NCBI RefSeq assembly: GCF_900116425.1
Contig: NZ_FPAS01000006.1
Span: 124,001 to 188,000 of the forward strand
Direction of reading: 5' to 3'
Origin: Lishizhenia tianjinensis
GTDB taxonomy: Bacteria > Bacteroidota > Bacteroidia > Flavobacteriales_D > Crocinitomicaceae
DNA length: 64,000 nucleotides
The position numbers were made by a program, and so were the translations under genes. The stretch's first letter is position 1. Each line of letters opens with the position of its first letter. Below the pieces are notes generated by a model, which had not been told where the DNA came from, did no database searches, and worked only from the letters and a program-made list of their open reading frames with translations. Shown here piece after piece: positions 23,549-61,061 of the stretch.

Positions 23549-23588
23549 TTAGACGCCTGGACAACTAGATGCCTAGACTGCTAGAAAT
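23549..23588. repeat. CTAGANNN octamer array, solo copy 1
   Basis: Five units in exact 8-bp register: TTAGA, CTGGA, CTAGA, CTAGA, CTAGA at 23549, 23557, 23565, 23573 and 23581, each followed by three variable bases. The first two units are degenerate. No four-helix-bundle gene is next to it. Confidence 0.75.
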
Positions 23589-50729: not shown

Positions 50730-53135
50730 ATGAATAGACACATTCGCAAAGTTGCGGTGCTTGGTTCGGGAGTCATGGGCTCCCGAATAGCATGTCACTT
50801 TGCTAACATCGGGCTAGATGTTCTTTTGCTCGATATCGTACCCAGAGAACTCAACGAAAAAGAACAAAAAACAGGATTAACCCTCGAGGACAAATCCGTA
50901 AGAAACAGAATCGTCAACGATTCACTTACCACCGCCCTCAAATCCAATCCTTCACCTATCTACAGCAAGTCTTTCGCCGGTAGAATCAAAACCGGAAATT
51001 TCGAAGACGATCTTCACAAGATTAAAGATTGCGACTGGACCATAGAAGTGGTCATCGAAAGGCTCGACATCAAACAACAAGTATTTGCAAAAGTTGAGGA
51101 ACACCGCAAGCCGGGTAGTTTAATTACTTCTAACACTTCAGGTATTCCTATTCACCTTATGCTCGAGGGTAGAAGTGATGATTTCAAAAAACATTTCTGC
51201 GGAACTCACTTCTTTAACCCACCAAGATATTTACAACTTTTTGAAGTAATTCCAACTGCTGAAACTTCAGCAGAAGTGGTAGACTTCTTCATGGAATACG
51301 GAAGAAAATATTTAGGAAAGAAAACTGTTCTTTGTAAAGATACTCCAGCATTTATTGCCAACAGAGTGGGTGTATACTCTATCATGTCGCTTTTCCATGC
51401 AGTGAAAGAACTAGACATGAACATAGAGGAAGTAGACAAATTAACTGGTCCTATTTTAGGCCGACCAAAATCTGCAACCTTTAGAACCTGTGATGTTGTT
51501 GGTTTAGATACTTTGGTACACGTGGCTAACGGACTTAAAGAAAATTGTCCAAACGACGAAGCCAAAGAGCTGTTCAACTTACCCGACTACATTTCAAAAA
51601 TGGTAGAAAACAATTGGCTAGGTTCAAAAACCAACCAAGGTTTCTATAAGAAAGTTGTCGATGAAAATGGTCAGAAAAACATCCTTTCTTTAGATTTAGA
51701 AACCTTAGAGTACAGAGAAAAAGCCAATGTGAACTTCCCTACCCTTGCTATGGCCAAACCCATAGATGATTTAAAACAACGTACTAAAATGTTGTTCCAA
51801 GGGATGGATAAAGCGGGAGAATTCTACAGAAAAACTTTTGCAGGACTCTTTGCATACGTTACCAATAGAATTCCAGAAATCTCTGATGATTTATACAAAA
51901 TTGACGATGCAATTAAAGCAGGTTTCGGTTGGGAATTAGGTCCTTTCGAAACCTGGGATTTAATTGGTTTAGACAAAGGGCTAGAATTAATTGCCAAAGA
52001 AAGCCACAAAGCTGCAGCATGGGTTGAAGAAATGAAAGCCGCTGGCATTACTTCTTTCTACAAGAATGATAAAGGAAGTAAATTGTACTACGATATCGCT
52101 TCTAAAGCATACAAAACCATCCCAGGTACCGAAGACATGGTTATTCTTGATGCCTTGCGCGAAGAGAATACGGTTTGGAAAAATAGCGATGCTACCTTGG
52201 TTCATTTAGGAGATGGAATCTTGAATTTGGAATTCCACACGAAAATGAACACCATTGGTGGTGGGGTAATTGAAGGCATTAATAAAGCCATAGACATCGC
52301 TGAGAAAGAATACAAAGGATTGGTCATCTCTAATACGGGCCAAAACTTTAGCGCCGGTGCCAATGTGGGTATGATCTTCATGATGGCCGTAGAACAAGAT
52401 TTTGATGAATTAAATTTTGCAGTCAAAACCTTCCAAGATACCATGATGCGCGTACGTTACAGTGACATTCCTGTAATCGTTGCTCCGCACAACCTTGCTT
52501 TAGGTGGTGGATGTGAATTGTCTATGCACTCAGATAAAGTGGTAGCCCATGCCGAACTATACATGGGATTGGTTGAATTTGGAGTGGGTGTTATCCCTGG
52601 TGGTGGTGGAACCAAAGAGTTTGTGAAAAGACTCTCTGAGGAATTATCAGAAGGGGATATCCGCATCAACAAAATGCGTGAACGTTTCTTAACCATTGGT
52701 CAGGCAAAAGTGGCTACTTCAGCAGAAGAAGCGTTTGAATTGGGCTATTTAAGAAGAGGTCAAGACGAATACGTGATGTCGAGAGAACTACAATTAACTC
52801 GCGCCAAAGAAGCTTGTTTAGGATTGGCCAACAAAGGTTATGTAGCTCCAGCCAAAGAGAAAAACATTACCATCCTCGGACAAGAAGGCTTAGGTATCGT
52901 TTACGTTGGAGCAGATTCTATGCAATCGGGTAACTACATCTCAGAGCACGACAGACTCATCTCAGAAAAACTAGGATTTGTAATGTGTGGTGGAGATATC
53001 TCCGAACGTGTTCAAGTTTCAGAACAATATCTCCTCGATTTAGAAAGAAGAGCCTTCGTAGAACTCTGCGCCGAACGCAAAACACTAGAGCGTCTAGAAA
53101 GCATGGTGAAGAAAGGTAAAATTCTTAGAAATTAA
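50730..53135 (+). CDS. fadN: 3-hydroxyacyl-CoA dehydrogenase / enoyl-CoA hydratase
   Basis: 801 residues carrying two beta-oxidation activities. The N-terminal Rossmann domain (VAVLGSGVMGSRIACHFAN) and 3HCDH domain (about 1-330) come first, followed by a second dehydrogenase-like segment (about 360-460). The C-terminal crotonase domain (about 495-700) has FSAGANVGMI and LALGGGCELSMHSDKVV. This order is the reverse of E. coli FadB and matches FadN. It is followed by an octamer array, a small inserted gene, and the thiolase it works with. Confidence 0.92.
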   Translation: MNRHIRKVAVLGSGVMGSRIACHFANIGLDVLLLDIVPRELNEKEQKTGLTLEDKSVRNRIVNDSLTTALKSNPSPIYSKSFAGRIKTGNFEDDLHKIKDCDWTIEVVIERLDIKQQVFAKVEEHRKPGSLITSNTSGIPIHLMLEGRSDDFKKHFCGTHFFNPPRYLQLFEVIPTAETSAEVVDFFMEYGRKYLGKKTVLCKDTPAFIANRVGVYSIMSLFHAVKELDMNIEEVDKLTGPILGRPKSATFRTCDVVGLDTLVHVANGLKENCPNDEAKELFNLPDYISKMVENNWLGSKTNQGFYKKVVDENGQKNILSLDLETLEYREKANVNFPTLAMAKPIDDLKQRTKMLFQGMDKAGEFYRKTFAGLFAYVTNRIPEISDDLYKIDDAIKAGFGWELGPFETWDLIGLDKGLELIAKESHKAAAWVEEMKAAGITSFYKNDKGSKLYYDIASKAYKTIPGTEDMVILDALREENTVWKNSDATLVHLGDGILNLEFHTKMNTIGGGVIEGINKAIDIAEKEYKGLVISNTGQNFSAGANVGMIFMMAVEQDFDELNFAVKTFQDTMMRVRYSDIPVIVAPHNLALGGGCELSMHSDKVVAHAELYMGLVEFGVGVIPGGGGTKEFVKRLSEELSEGDIRINKMRERFLTIGQAKVATSAEEAFELGYLRRGQDEYVMSRELQLTRAKEACLGLANKGYVAPAKEKNITILGQEGLGIVYVGADSMQSGNYISEHDRLISEKLGFVMCGGDISERVQVSEQYLLDLERRAFVELCAERKTLERLESMVKKGKILRN

Positions 53136-53144
53136 TGGAGATAC

Positions 53145-53176
53145 CTAGATGTCTAGAGTGCTAGATATCTAGAAGA
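53145..53176. repeat. CTAGANNN octamer array, left flank of the four-helix-bundle gene
   Basis: Four perfect CTAGA units at 53145, 53153, 53161 and 53169, each 8 bp apart with variable trinucleotides TGT, GTG, TAT, AGA. It starts 9 bp after the dehydrogenase stop and ends 9 bp before the small gene's ATG. Confidence 0.85.
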
Positions 53177-53185
53177 GGATGAAAA

Positions 53186-53542
53186 ATGAAGAAGCACAAC
53201 TTTAAAGAAATGATGATTTGGAAAAAAGCCATGGATTTAGTGGTTTCCATTTACCAAATAACTGAAAATCTTCCAGCGAAGGAAAATTTCAATTTGGTGA
53301 GTCAAATCAACAGGTGTGCAGTATCCATACCATCAAATATTGCAGAAGGTAGTGGTCGTACAACCAACAAAAGCTTTTCAAATTTTCTAAACTTTAGTTT
53401 ATCCTCTGCATTTGAATTAGAAACACAATTGATATTGTTAGATCGTATTTACAAGGTTCCAACGAAAACGGAACAAAGCGAACTTGTTGAGCTTCAAAAA
53501 ATGATAAGGTCCTTCAATAATCAATTAATTAAAAATCTCTAG
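53186..53542 (+). CDS. Four-helix-bundle (S23-like) protein inserted in the beta-oxidation operon
   Basis: 118 residues. The signature SQINRCAVSIPSNIAEGSGR near residues 45-64, with KKAMDLVVSIYQ before and LNFSLSSAFELETQLILLDR after, is that of the 23S rRNA-intervening-sequence / four helix bundle family. No enzymatic residues; the family resembles the Avd proteins of diversity-generating retroelements in fold. It separates two genes that normally adjoin (fadN and the thiolase) and is bracketed by octamer arrays. Its TAG stop is part of the first unit of the right array. No rRNA gene or reverse transcriptase is nearby. Confidence 0.85.
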   Translation: MKKHNFKEMMIWKKAMDLVVSIYQITENLPAKENFNLVSQINRCAVSIPSNIAEGSGRTTNKSFSNFLNFSLSSAFELETQLILLDRIYKVPTKTEQSELVELQKMIRSFNNQLIKNL

Positions 53543-53578
53543 GCATCTAGAAATCTAGAAGTCTAGCAATCTAAAGAA
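53539..53578. repeat. CTAGANNN octamer array, right flank of the four-helix-bundle gene
   Basis: Five units at 53539, 53547, 53555, 53563 and 53571 (CTAGG, CTAGA, CTAGA, CTAGC, CTAAA), 8 bp apart. It includes the stop codon of the small gene and ends 2 bp before the thiolase ATG. Confidence 0.8.
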
Positions 53579-53580
53579 AA

Positions 53581-54756
53581 ATGAACGCATACATAGTAAC
53601 AGGATATAGAACCGCAGTTGGGAAAGCCAACAAAGGGGGATTCCGCTTTTACAGACCCGATGATTTGGGAGCGGATGTGATCAAACACATATTAAAAGAA
53701 GTGCCGCAATTAGATCCCGCACGTGTGGACGATGTAATTGTTGGTAACGCAACGCCAGAGGCTGAGCAGGGACTAAACATGGGAAGAATGATTTCTTTAA
53801 TGGGACTCGAAACCGATAAAGTTCCAGGTGTTACCGTTAACCGATACTGTTCTTCTGGATTAGAAACAATTGCCATGGCAACAGCTAAAATCAACGCCGG
53901 TATGGCAGATTGTATCATTGCTGGTGGTGTTGAATCTATGTCTGTAATGGCCATGGGTGGTTGGAGAATTGTTCCCAATGCCAAAGTAGCCAAGAAAAAC
54001 CCAGATTGGTACTGGGGAATGGGATTAACAGCAGAGGCTGTTGCCAAGGAATTTAAGGTAAGTCGTGAAGACCAAGATGCTTTTGCCCTAGAATCTCACC
54101 GAAGAGCTTTAGAGGCCATCAAAACTGGAAGATTTAAAGATGACATCGTTCCGATTGAAGTAGAACACATCTTCTTAGACCAAAACGAAAAACGTCAAGT
54201 AAAAACTTATACGGTAGATACAGATGAAGGACCACGTCCGGGAGGATCGCTAGAAGCTTTGGGAAGATTGCGTCCTGTATTCGCCCAAGGTGGATCAGTA
54301 ACGGCAGGTAACTCTTCACAAACTTCTGATGGAGCAGCATTCTGTTTGGTAATGTCTGAGCGTATGGTCAAAGAACTCGGCTTAGAACCCGTAGCGCGTT
54401 TGGCTTCTTACTCTGTGGTAGGTGTTCCACCAAGAATCATGGGTATAGGTCCAGTTGATGCTATACCAGCAGCAATCAAACAGGCAGGTTTACAAAAATC
54501 TGACATTAGTTTATACGAACTAAACGAGGCTTTTGCTTCTCAATCTCTGGCCGTAATTCGCGAAGTAGGTTTGGACAAAGAAATCGTAAACGTTAACGGT
54601 GGAGCCATTAGTTTAGGTCACCCGCTAGGTTGTACAGGTGCTAAATTAACCGTACAAATGATGAACGAATTGAAGAAACGCAAGGAGAAATATGGTGTAG
54701 TTACCATGTGTGTAGGTACCGGACAAGGTGCAGCCGGCGTTATCGAAAGGTTATAA
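53581..54756 (+). CDS. fadA: Acetyl-CoA C-acyltransferase (3-ketoacyl-CoA thiolase)
   Basis: 391 residues. Last step of the beta-oxidation cycle. The nucleophile Cys90 is in TVNRYCSSGLE, the His base in GGAISLGHPLGCTG, and the second Cys in TMCVGTGQGAAG. Partner of the dehydrogenase/hydratase upstream, from which it is split by the octamer-bounded cassette. Followed by a strong terminator, so the acyl-CoA dehydrogenase step is encoded elsewhere. Confidence 0.95.
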   Translation: MNAYIVTGYRTAVGKANKGGFRFYRPDDLGADVIKHILKEVPQLDPARVDDVIVGNATPEAEQGLNMGRMISLMGLETDKVPGVTVNRYCSSGLETIAMATAKINAGMADCIIAGGVESMSVMAMGGWRIVPNAKVAKKNPDWYWGMGLTAEAVAKEFKVSREDQDAFALESHRRALEAIKTGRFKDDIVPIEVEHIFLDQNEKRQVKTYTVDTDEGPRPGGSLEALGRLRPVFAQGGSVTAGNSSQTSDGAAFCLVMSERMVKELGLEPVARLASYSVVGVPPRIMGIGPVDAIPAAIKQAGLQKSDISLYELNEAFASQSLAVIREVGLDKEIVNVNGGAISLGHPLGCTGAKLTVQMMNELKKRKEKYGVVTMCVGTGQGAAGVIERL

Positions 54757-61013: not shown

Positions 61014-61061
61014 TTAGATACCTAGACAGCTAGATTTCTAGATATCTAGATATCTAGATAA
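61014..61061. repeat. CTAGANNN octamer array, solo copy 2
   Basis: Six units at 61014, 61022, 61030, 61038, 61046 and 61054 (TTAGA, then five perfect CTAGA), 8 bp apart. The last two trinucleotides are TAT, making the repeat TCTAGATA. It sits between the lnt stop and the lnt terminator; no four-helix-bundle gene is next to it. Confidence 0.85.

Follow-up and report, generated by a model that had tools for sequence, protein, structure and literature searches.

Results

The window, as we call the whole stretch of 64,000 nucleotides of Lishizhenia tianjinensis DNA that was analysed, contains a gene of the S23/IVP family between a fadN-like gene and a thiolase gene, with an array of short repeats on either side of it (Table 1). 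A first-pass annotation of this DNA had described such an arrangement, and both the coordinates and the profile matches bear it out. The S23 protein matches PF05635 at 3.2e-32 (111.4 bits against a curated cut-off of 33.8, over residues 7-108) and TIGR02436 at 2.5e-31 (108.1, cut-off 24), and it is also matched by the bAvd and DivGenRetAVD profiles, both under cut-off. A profile built from 11 S23 members matches the solved relatives 2gsc and 2rld, each of which has five chains. The upstream neighbour, which we take to be FadN, matches profiles of the FadB/3HCDH type in a profile search.

The octamers of the 5' array start at 53145, 53153, 53161 and 53169, the first of them 10 nt downstream of where fadN stops. 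The units of the 3' array begin at 53539, 53547, 53555 and 53563 and are followed by a decayed fifth. Here an invariant T precedes each CTAG, corresponding to an A that follows CTAG on the opposite strand; the 3' array is thus the reverse complement of the 5' unit, and the two arrays form inverted arms. The strict 8-bp register claimed earlier holds for four units on each side plus the decayed one, while the orientation had to be corrected to inverted. The S23 stop codon (53540-53542) does lie within the first 3' unit, as had been noted. The gap between the neighbouring genes that holds the cassette measures 445 nt and, folded as RNA, has a minimum free energy of -107.4 kcal/mol, with a z-score of -5.5 versus 100 dinucleotide shuffles. 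A search of positions 52900-53800 for known RNA families returned a single match, under its gathering score.

Table 1. Position and parts of the S23 cassette, with two solo arrays of the same window
Feature	Position	Strand	Remarks
fadN-like gene (3-hydroxyacyl-CoA dehydrogenase / enoyl-CoA hydratase)	50730..53135	+	profile matches; upstream operon neighbour
5' array, four octamers CTAGATGT CTAGAGTG CTAGATAT CTAGAAGA	53145..53176	+	
S23/IVP four-helix-bundle gene, 118 aa	53186..53542	+	PF05635, TIGR02436
3' array, inverted; + strand reads CTAGGCAT CTAGAAAT CTAGAAGT CTAGCAAT CTA	53539..53575	-	
Thiolase (acetyl-CoA C-acyltransferase) gene	53581..54756	+	profile matches; downstream operon neighbour
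Whole cassette as RNA	53136..53580	+	arms paired, S23 ORF in loop
Solo CTAGANNN-class array without S23 gene	61014..61059	+	begins right after stop codon
Second solo CTAGANNN-class array, partly decayed	23557..23585	+	after terminator-like hairpin (by eye)

Two-unit matches to CTAGANNN with at most one mismatch number 25 in the window, where 3.1 are expected, and three-unit matches in the whole genome number 20 forward and 22 reverse, with none for the reversed pattern. This excess and the empty control argue that the arrays are not a product of chance. The triples fall in 22 places, over which the core is conserved while the spacer letters vary; two are the arms of the present cassette and 20 are solo arrays, of which all 19 that were examined are intergenic and 9 of the 19 lie between convergent genes. 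Among 60 sampled genomes of the host family, CTAGANNN triples were found in one, that of L. tianjinensis itself (reversed-pattern control 0), and we rejected the motif as a general S23 signature. The annotation's proposal that CTAGANNN is linked to S23 genes is unsupported on the same grounds, with 20 of the 22 places away from S23: arrays of this motif literally occur genome-wide apart from S23 genes, a finding which that annotation had itself set against its proposal.

L. tianjinensis has seven PF05635 genes, one of them between CTAGANNN arrays. The other six are not in CTAGANNN arrays; five of these six have, by eye, arrays of another motif that are inverted across both sides, and of the six, five were scored and three of those pass the inverted-arm line defined below. 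These genes turned attention from the motif CTAGANNN to the S23 family as a whole, and the CTAGANNN octamer is one local version of a more general arrangement. At two sites of this genome, L011 (C2:1412217) and L014 (C7:35346), units of TTAGANNN and CTAGANNN continue in or near one register, which suggests that one motif grew from the other; no TTAGANNN-flanked gene was seen among the seven S23 genes. At L110, L112 and L123, also in this genome, adjacent ATTCAANN and ATTTGANNN arrays form gene-less, hairpin-like pairs; the S23 genes L036 and L034 are, by eye, flanked by this pair of motifs too.

The inverted-arm score compares, by local alignment, the 150 nt that precede the start codon with the reverse-complemented 150 nt that begin at the stop codon. 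The same score between different loci served as the first control, and a common pass line of >32 was used for a recount. The sample took the best-scoring S23 family members first, and its loci are phylogenetically non-independent. In the family set (74 of 77 loci scored), loci had a mean score of 36.1 with themselves and 21.9 with other loci; the highest mean of 10,000 random pairings was 24.7, and 45 loci exceeded the 95th percentile of other-locus scores. The named genomes (79 of 80 loci) gave 37.7 versus 21.1, a highest random-pairing mean of 24.0 in 10,000, and 49 loci over the 95th percentile. Seven other genomes from outside Bacteroidota (Gastranaerophilales, Peregrini-, Gracili- and Falkowbacteria, Fibrobacter, Ignavibacteriae and Bacillota) gave 47.3 versus 20.8 for 30 loci, with 25 over the percentile, and Cyanobacteriota gave 58.9 versus 20.7 for 22 loci, with 18 over it.

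In the recount of distinct loci, the line was passed by 46/75 in the family set, 49/79 in the named genomes, 20/23 in the seven other genomes and 18/22 in the cyanobacteria, or 133/199 in total, leaving 66/199 under it. Ordinary genes passed in 33 of 1731 cases: 15/1222 in six family genomes, 8/297 in four cyanobacteria with heptamer arrays, and 10/212 in G060, G063, G064 and G065. The recount was made without eight loci common to two sets (seven of the seven-genome set and L319 of the named genomes). Rows that had initially been dropped or overlapped were L034, L039 and L089 in the family set, L250 in the named genomes and L378 in the cyanobacteria; the recount keeps L089 and L250, with flanks of 93 and 92 nt. 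Scoring was entered by 23 of the 30 cyanobacterial loci returned, leaving out L334, already in the seven-genome set, and the weak or partial L393-L398.

Direct, same-sense flanking arrays were tried as the rule and rejected: the mean direct scores (29.2, 26.7, 21.4 and 30.5) lie under the inverted means in all four sets, and the direct score passes the line at 31/199 distinct loci (15, 10, 1 and 5 by set), some of these passes coming, by eye, from extra inverted copies upstream. L082 and L086 have high direct-comparison scores too. Among plasmid-borne cyanobacterial S23 loci, 6 of 14 (fetched from 34 records) pass the inverted line; the failing loci L362 and L371 have long arrays in the same direction, with direct scores of 142 and 122. 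Periodicity was found in 110 of 402 flanks of distinct loci, with a period of 7 in 78, 8 in 27 and 9 in 3; in the set that includes the eight repeated loci, shuffling left 3 of 418 flanks periodic, versus 116 unshuffled. At 158 of 201 loci the 5' flank, just before the start codon, has more G than C.

PF05635 genes in Bacteroidota, Cyanobacteriota, CPR, Ignavibacteria and other groups are thus usually flanked by inverted arrays, whose units are mostly 7-8 nt long and whose motifs differ from locus to locus. The link between S23 genes and arrays proposed in the first-pass annotation reaches far beyond the genome in which it was noticed, though as a link to short-unit arrays generally and not to CTAGANNN. 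By eye, L038, L046, L050 and L065 have an extra array hairpin upstream besides the flanking pair, and such elements may nest or stack. At L241:7129-7735 (G056), an unrelated ORF of 202 codons lies between long inverted array-like copies with a score of 86; it is possibly a non-S23 cargo.

The recurrent junctions in the family set, with gene names assigned by eye from terminal residues, are fadN|thiolase (20 of the 77 fetched loci, one of them, L089, visible on the thiolase side only), sdhA|sdhB (11) and sufB|sufC (9). Others are atpA|atpG, carA|eno, enoyl-CoA-hydratase|3-hydroxybutyryl-CoA dehydrogenase and kynurenine genes. Where both neighbours could be called, 148 of 164 distinct loci lie in sense between co-directional genes, 7 are antisense and 9 are other; the cyanobacterial loci comprise 10 sense and 5 antisense.

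Comparison of the fadN|thiolase junction between relatives, which the first-pass annotation had pointed to as the place where empty sites might be seen, covered 28 readable loci of 30: 18 have an S23 gene and 10 do not. The fadN end was found in seven of these ten but not in the other three. By eye, L151 and L152 have an array hairpin without the gene; L163 is nearly empty, with a gap of 14, and the remaining four have 54-160 nt of other sequence. At atpA|atpG, 25 of 30 loci were readable, with four gaps of 401-435 nt (two of them S23 loci by position), two further loci with S23 by position, and 19 gaps of 16-90 nt. Seven of these short gaps resemble gene-less array hairpins by eye (L179-L182, L185, L189 and L207), and several are plain palindromes. 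The palindromes of L184, L197, L204 and L205 look REP-like by eye and occupy the spot of array hairpins or S23 cassettes elsewhere, as though different sorts of hairpin could become established at this position.

By eye, the 3' arm of the S23 locus L047 (G045) shares a 19-nt array stretch with the gene-less hairpin L151 (G033), and G017 has an array hairpin and no PF05635 match. The gene-less array hairpins L214 and L217 of G045 have TTAGAC units and resemble, by eye, the arrays of that genome's S23 locus L069. With a strict array detector, 400 kb of the L. tianjinensis genome (G000) yielded 12 arrays and 400 kb of G004 none, and an array-hairpin detector found 3, 0, 3, 0, 1 and 0 in samples of G000, G004, G045, G017, G056 and G033; G004, which has S23 genes, showed no array in its 400 kb by either detector. 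BLAST of array arms versus genome samples is too strict for degenerate units: flanks of the seven L. tianjinensis S23 genes matched 3, 0, 6, 3, 0, 4 and 3 places in its own 400 kb and 0, 0, 0, 1, 0, 0 and 0 in G004, six G004 loci matched 0, 0, 1, 0, 0 and 0 in the L. tianjinensis sample and 1, 0, 1, 0, 0 and 0 in the G004 sample, and shuffled arms gave 0 or 1 matches.

Two pairs of genomes with the fadN|thiolase junction bear on how the cassette moves. Between G022 and G058, the flanking fadN and thiolase genes are 73-88% identical in segments of 60 nt, while seven segments across the S23 gene are 95-100% identical (98.6% for the S23 DNA) and the next two, in which the 3' array ends and the thiolase gene starts, are 90% identical. 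A single 7-nt unit is the only difference between the two 5' arrays, and the aligned 3' array stretches agree in 59 columns out of 60. The pair G054 and G031 is the reverse case: the fadN 3' piece is 94.2% and the thiolase 5' piece 97.6% identical, S23 is 71.6% identical and the arrays differ. Taken together, these patterns indicate, at the level of sequence, that array, gene and array can be exchanged as a unit between species, and the exchange could be ordinary homologous recombination. This is the part of the cassette insertion proposed earlier that stands; the gene is not unique to the present locus, since 20 of the 77 family-set loci share its junction.

Among 11 same-junction pairs in which both flanks are at least 85% identical, five have an S23 identity at least 15 points lower and six do not; by our reading the five amount to about three events. 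Over 196 same-junction pairs, we count about three swap events and one recent transfer. S23 is evolving somewhat faster than its neighbours, with a mean identity of 68.5% versus 74.0% over 182 pairs. A tree of 77 S23 proteins requires 19 changes of junction label (minimum 14, shuffled mean 50.9); the proteins thus mostly cluster by junction, which argues that most copies were inherited in place and that jumps are rare. L097, at sdhA|sdhB, falls among the fadN-junction proteins, and although its exact place is unresolved, well-supported branches exclude it from the sdh group; by eye its arrays are of an AGAC type, like those of the fadN junction. L055 (carA|eno) adjoins L051 (fadN) in the tree with a support of 98/65.

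Array similarity was also compared between distinct loci whose flanks are unrelated, 19,140 pairs in all. It was found in 1.4% of pairs with less than 45% protein identity, 3.7% at 45-50%, 8.4% at 50-60%, 17 of 68 pairs at 60-80% and 3 of 3 over 80%. Three quarters of the pairs at 60-80% have dissimilar arrays by the same measure. The rise with protein identity indicates that arrays tend to go with the protein.

In cyanobacteria, the S23 genes L385 and L386 each lie between two arrays of the heptamer TTAGTCA, and L382 has such an array on its 3' side only. The genomes of these loci (G085, G105 and G120) have 700, 683 and 315 overlapping heptamer triple matches, respectively. TTRGTCA triples occur in 8 of 59 cyanobacterial genomes, and 7 of these 8 have a PF05635 match (E up to 0.001) versus 21 of the 51 others (Fisher 0.02). 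A looser GGG-type heptamer pattern occurs in 12 of 59 genomes, 10 with PF05635, and its reversed control also matches in several genomes. By eye, larger genomes tend to have more arrays and more PF05635, and the genome counts hint weakly at a link between heptamers and S23. G088 is rich in arrays and gave no match to PF05635; this fits a loss of S23 or speaks against a need for it.

On plasmids of Pseudanabaena and Anabaena (L362 and L367), the S23 gene sits between cas6 and cas4, with heptamer arrays that are direct at L362 and inverted at L367. Placement of this type may be the reason why a figure legend in the consulted part of PMC10910872, on CRISPR-associated proteins, includes 23S rRNA IVP.

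Discussion

The present locus is probably an IVS-like mobile cassette, composed of an array, an S23/IVP gene and an inverted array and placed in sense in an operon; we infer part of its function. As far as sequences can tell, the comparisons document co-exchange, a tendency of related S23 proteins to have related arrays at unrelated sites, and arms that can pair as RNA. The cassette would be transcribed together with its host operon, and an RNase specific for double strands would cleave the paired arms, much as RNase III does in the Coxiella 23S IVS, thereby reducing damage to the operon. The S23 protein may recognise the repeated core, leaving the spacers free; that it does so as a pentamer is suggested by the five chains of 2gsc and 2rld and by the Xanthomonas S23 homopentamer described in the consulted sections of PMC4990558. 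Such recognition could keep and spread the array, the gene and the gene-less arrays, and the enzyme that cuts and joins the DNA may be the host's.

More broadly, S23/IVP proteins might be the recognition factors of widespread transposase-less mobile elements, in which a ring reads its own array and spreads both the cassette and gene-less STRR/heptamer arrays, 23S IVSs being the copies sited in rRNA. We offer this as a tentative proposal that could well prove wrong. S23/IVP proteins and dispersed heptamer/octamer arrays, two old orphans, do look like halves of a single system: S23 gains a candidate ligand in its own flanking array, and the arrays gain a candidate agent. This connection may also explain S23 genes inside unrelated operons, such as that between cas6 and cas4, where they can be mistaken for parts of the system.

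The S23 protein might instead regulate RNA, binding the core in the operon mRNA to control its own translation or to uncouple the flanking genes, with selection acting on expression; the TRAP ring, which binds spaced GAG/UAG triplets in RNA, provides an analogy. Sense placement at 148 of the 164 called loci agrees with this, as do the pairing of the present arms in the predicted RNA, the excess of G over C just before the start codon (158 of 201 loci), a conserved core among variable spacers and the recurrence of junctions whose two genes belong to the same pathway or complex. However, array-to-array blocks change between species independently of their flanks, the junctions belong to unrelated pathways, solo arrays are many, convergent genes enclosing 9 of the 19 that were examined, and the cyanobacterial loci are 5 antisense versus 10 sense, so that we consider a regulatory role unlikely to be the explanation.

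Slippage and quasi-palindrome correction at intercistronic hairpins, with S23 as a passive passenger moved by homologous recombination through the flanking genes, strikes us as a rather poor prospect. By itself slippage would not be expected to give free spacers and a kept core over 22 places. The association of one protein family with arrays in several phyla, as against 33 of 1731 ordinary genes, and related S23 proteins with similar arrays at unrelated sites also speak against this view, even though it accommodates the unit-sized indel of 7 nt between G022 and G058, the S23-free hairpins seen by eye at the same junctions and the conservation of junctions between genera. An artefact of chance or composition, conceivable given that many flanks are rich in A+T and that short motifs readily recur, deserves next to no credence: none of 10,000 random pairings reached the observed mean in the family set or the named genomes, the reversed-pattern CTAGANNN controls were 0, shuffling left 3 periodic flanks versus 116, and the ordinary-gene controls stand at 33/1731.

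Comparison with known systems

The mobile cassette proposed here is closest to the intervening sequences of 23S rRNA genes. The sections of PMC4990558 consulted describe the Coxiella burnetii 23S IVS as a sequence of 428 nt that is excised by RNase III and has a 28-bp terminal stem and an S23p ORF, with tandem heptamers GACAGAT just before the ORF; they call the IVS a selfish element of scattered distribution, for which horizontal transfer is suggested, and cite the idea that the ORF served mobility. The statement in the first-pass annotation that S23-like proteins have no known mobility function is strictly correct, but it passes over this proposal, in which IVS ORFs are parts of selfish elements. 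Like the IVS, the present element has an ORF of the S23 family in a loop that is closed by a stem of terminal inverted repeats, and the sizes are similar (428 nt in Coxiella versus 445 here). Unlike it, the element is sited in an operon, between two protein-coding genes, and not in an rRNA gene, both arms are arrays, motifs differ between elements, and gene-less arrays are dispersed over the genome.

We know of no catalytic or nuclease motif in S23. A related four-helix-bundle family is found in the Avd protein of diversity-generating retroelements. Spread driven by a reverse transcriptase, as in those elements, was considered and rejected, since PF00078 has no match in the L. tianjinensis genome; the positive control gave matches in 3 of 14 genomes. 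In a REPtron, a RAYT gene, which encodes a Y1 transposase, is flanked by REP palindromes, and REPs are dispersed in the genome. The S23 cassette resembles a REPtron in having one small protein gene with a repeat class of its own that both flanks it and occurs elsewhere without the gene, and differs in that its arms are arrays whereas REPs are palindromes.

Heptamer repeats, called STRR in cyanobacteria, have been known for decades. Their defining trait, short direct repeats that are intergenic and dispersed, is found in kind in the present arrays, with units of 8 nt. The consulted part of PMC4679880 reports TAACTGA repeats in Beggiatoaceae, Cyanobacteria and Bacteroidetes, finds no evident mechanism of transfer, and suggests S1, Csp and CsrA-like proteins as possible binders of the repeats; the term S23 is absent from the main text of that paper. 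In the open-licence PMC literature, preprints excluded, we found no link between S23 and flanking arrays beyond the Coxiella heptamers. The present arrays share with STRR and TAACTGA repeats the units of about 7 nt in short direct arrays, the mostly intergenic, strain-specific and patchy occurrence, and the frequent position near start codons or within operons. What is new relative to those accounts is the inverted pairing of such arrays around an S23 gene.
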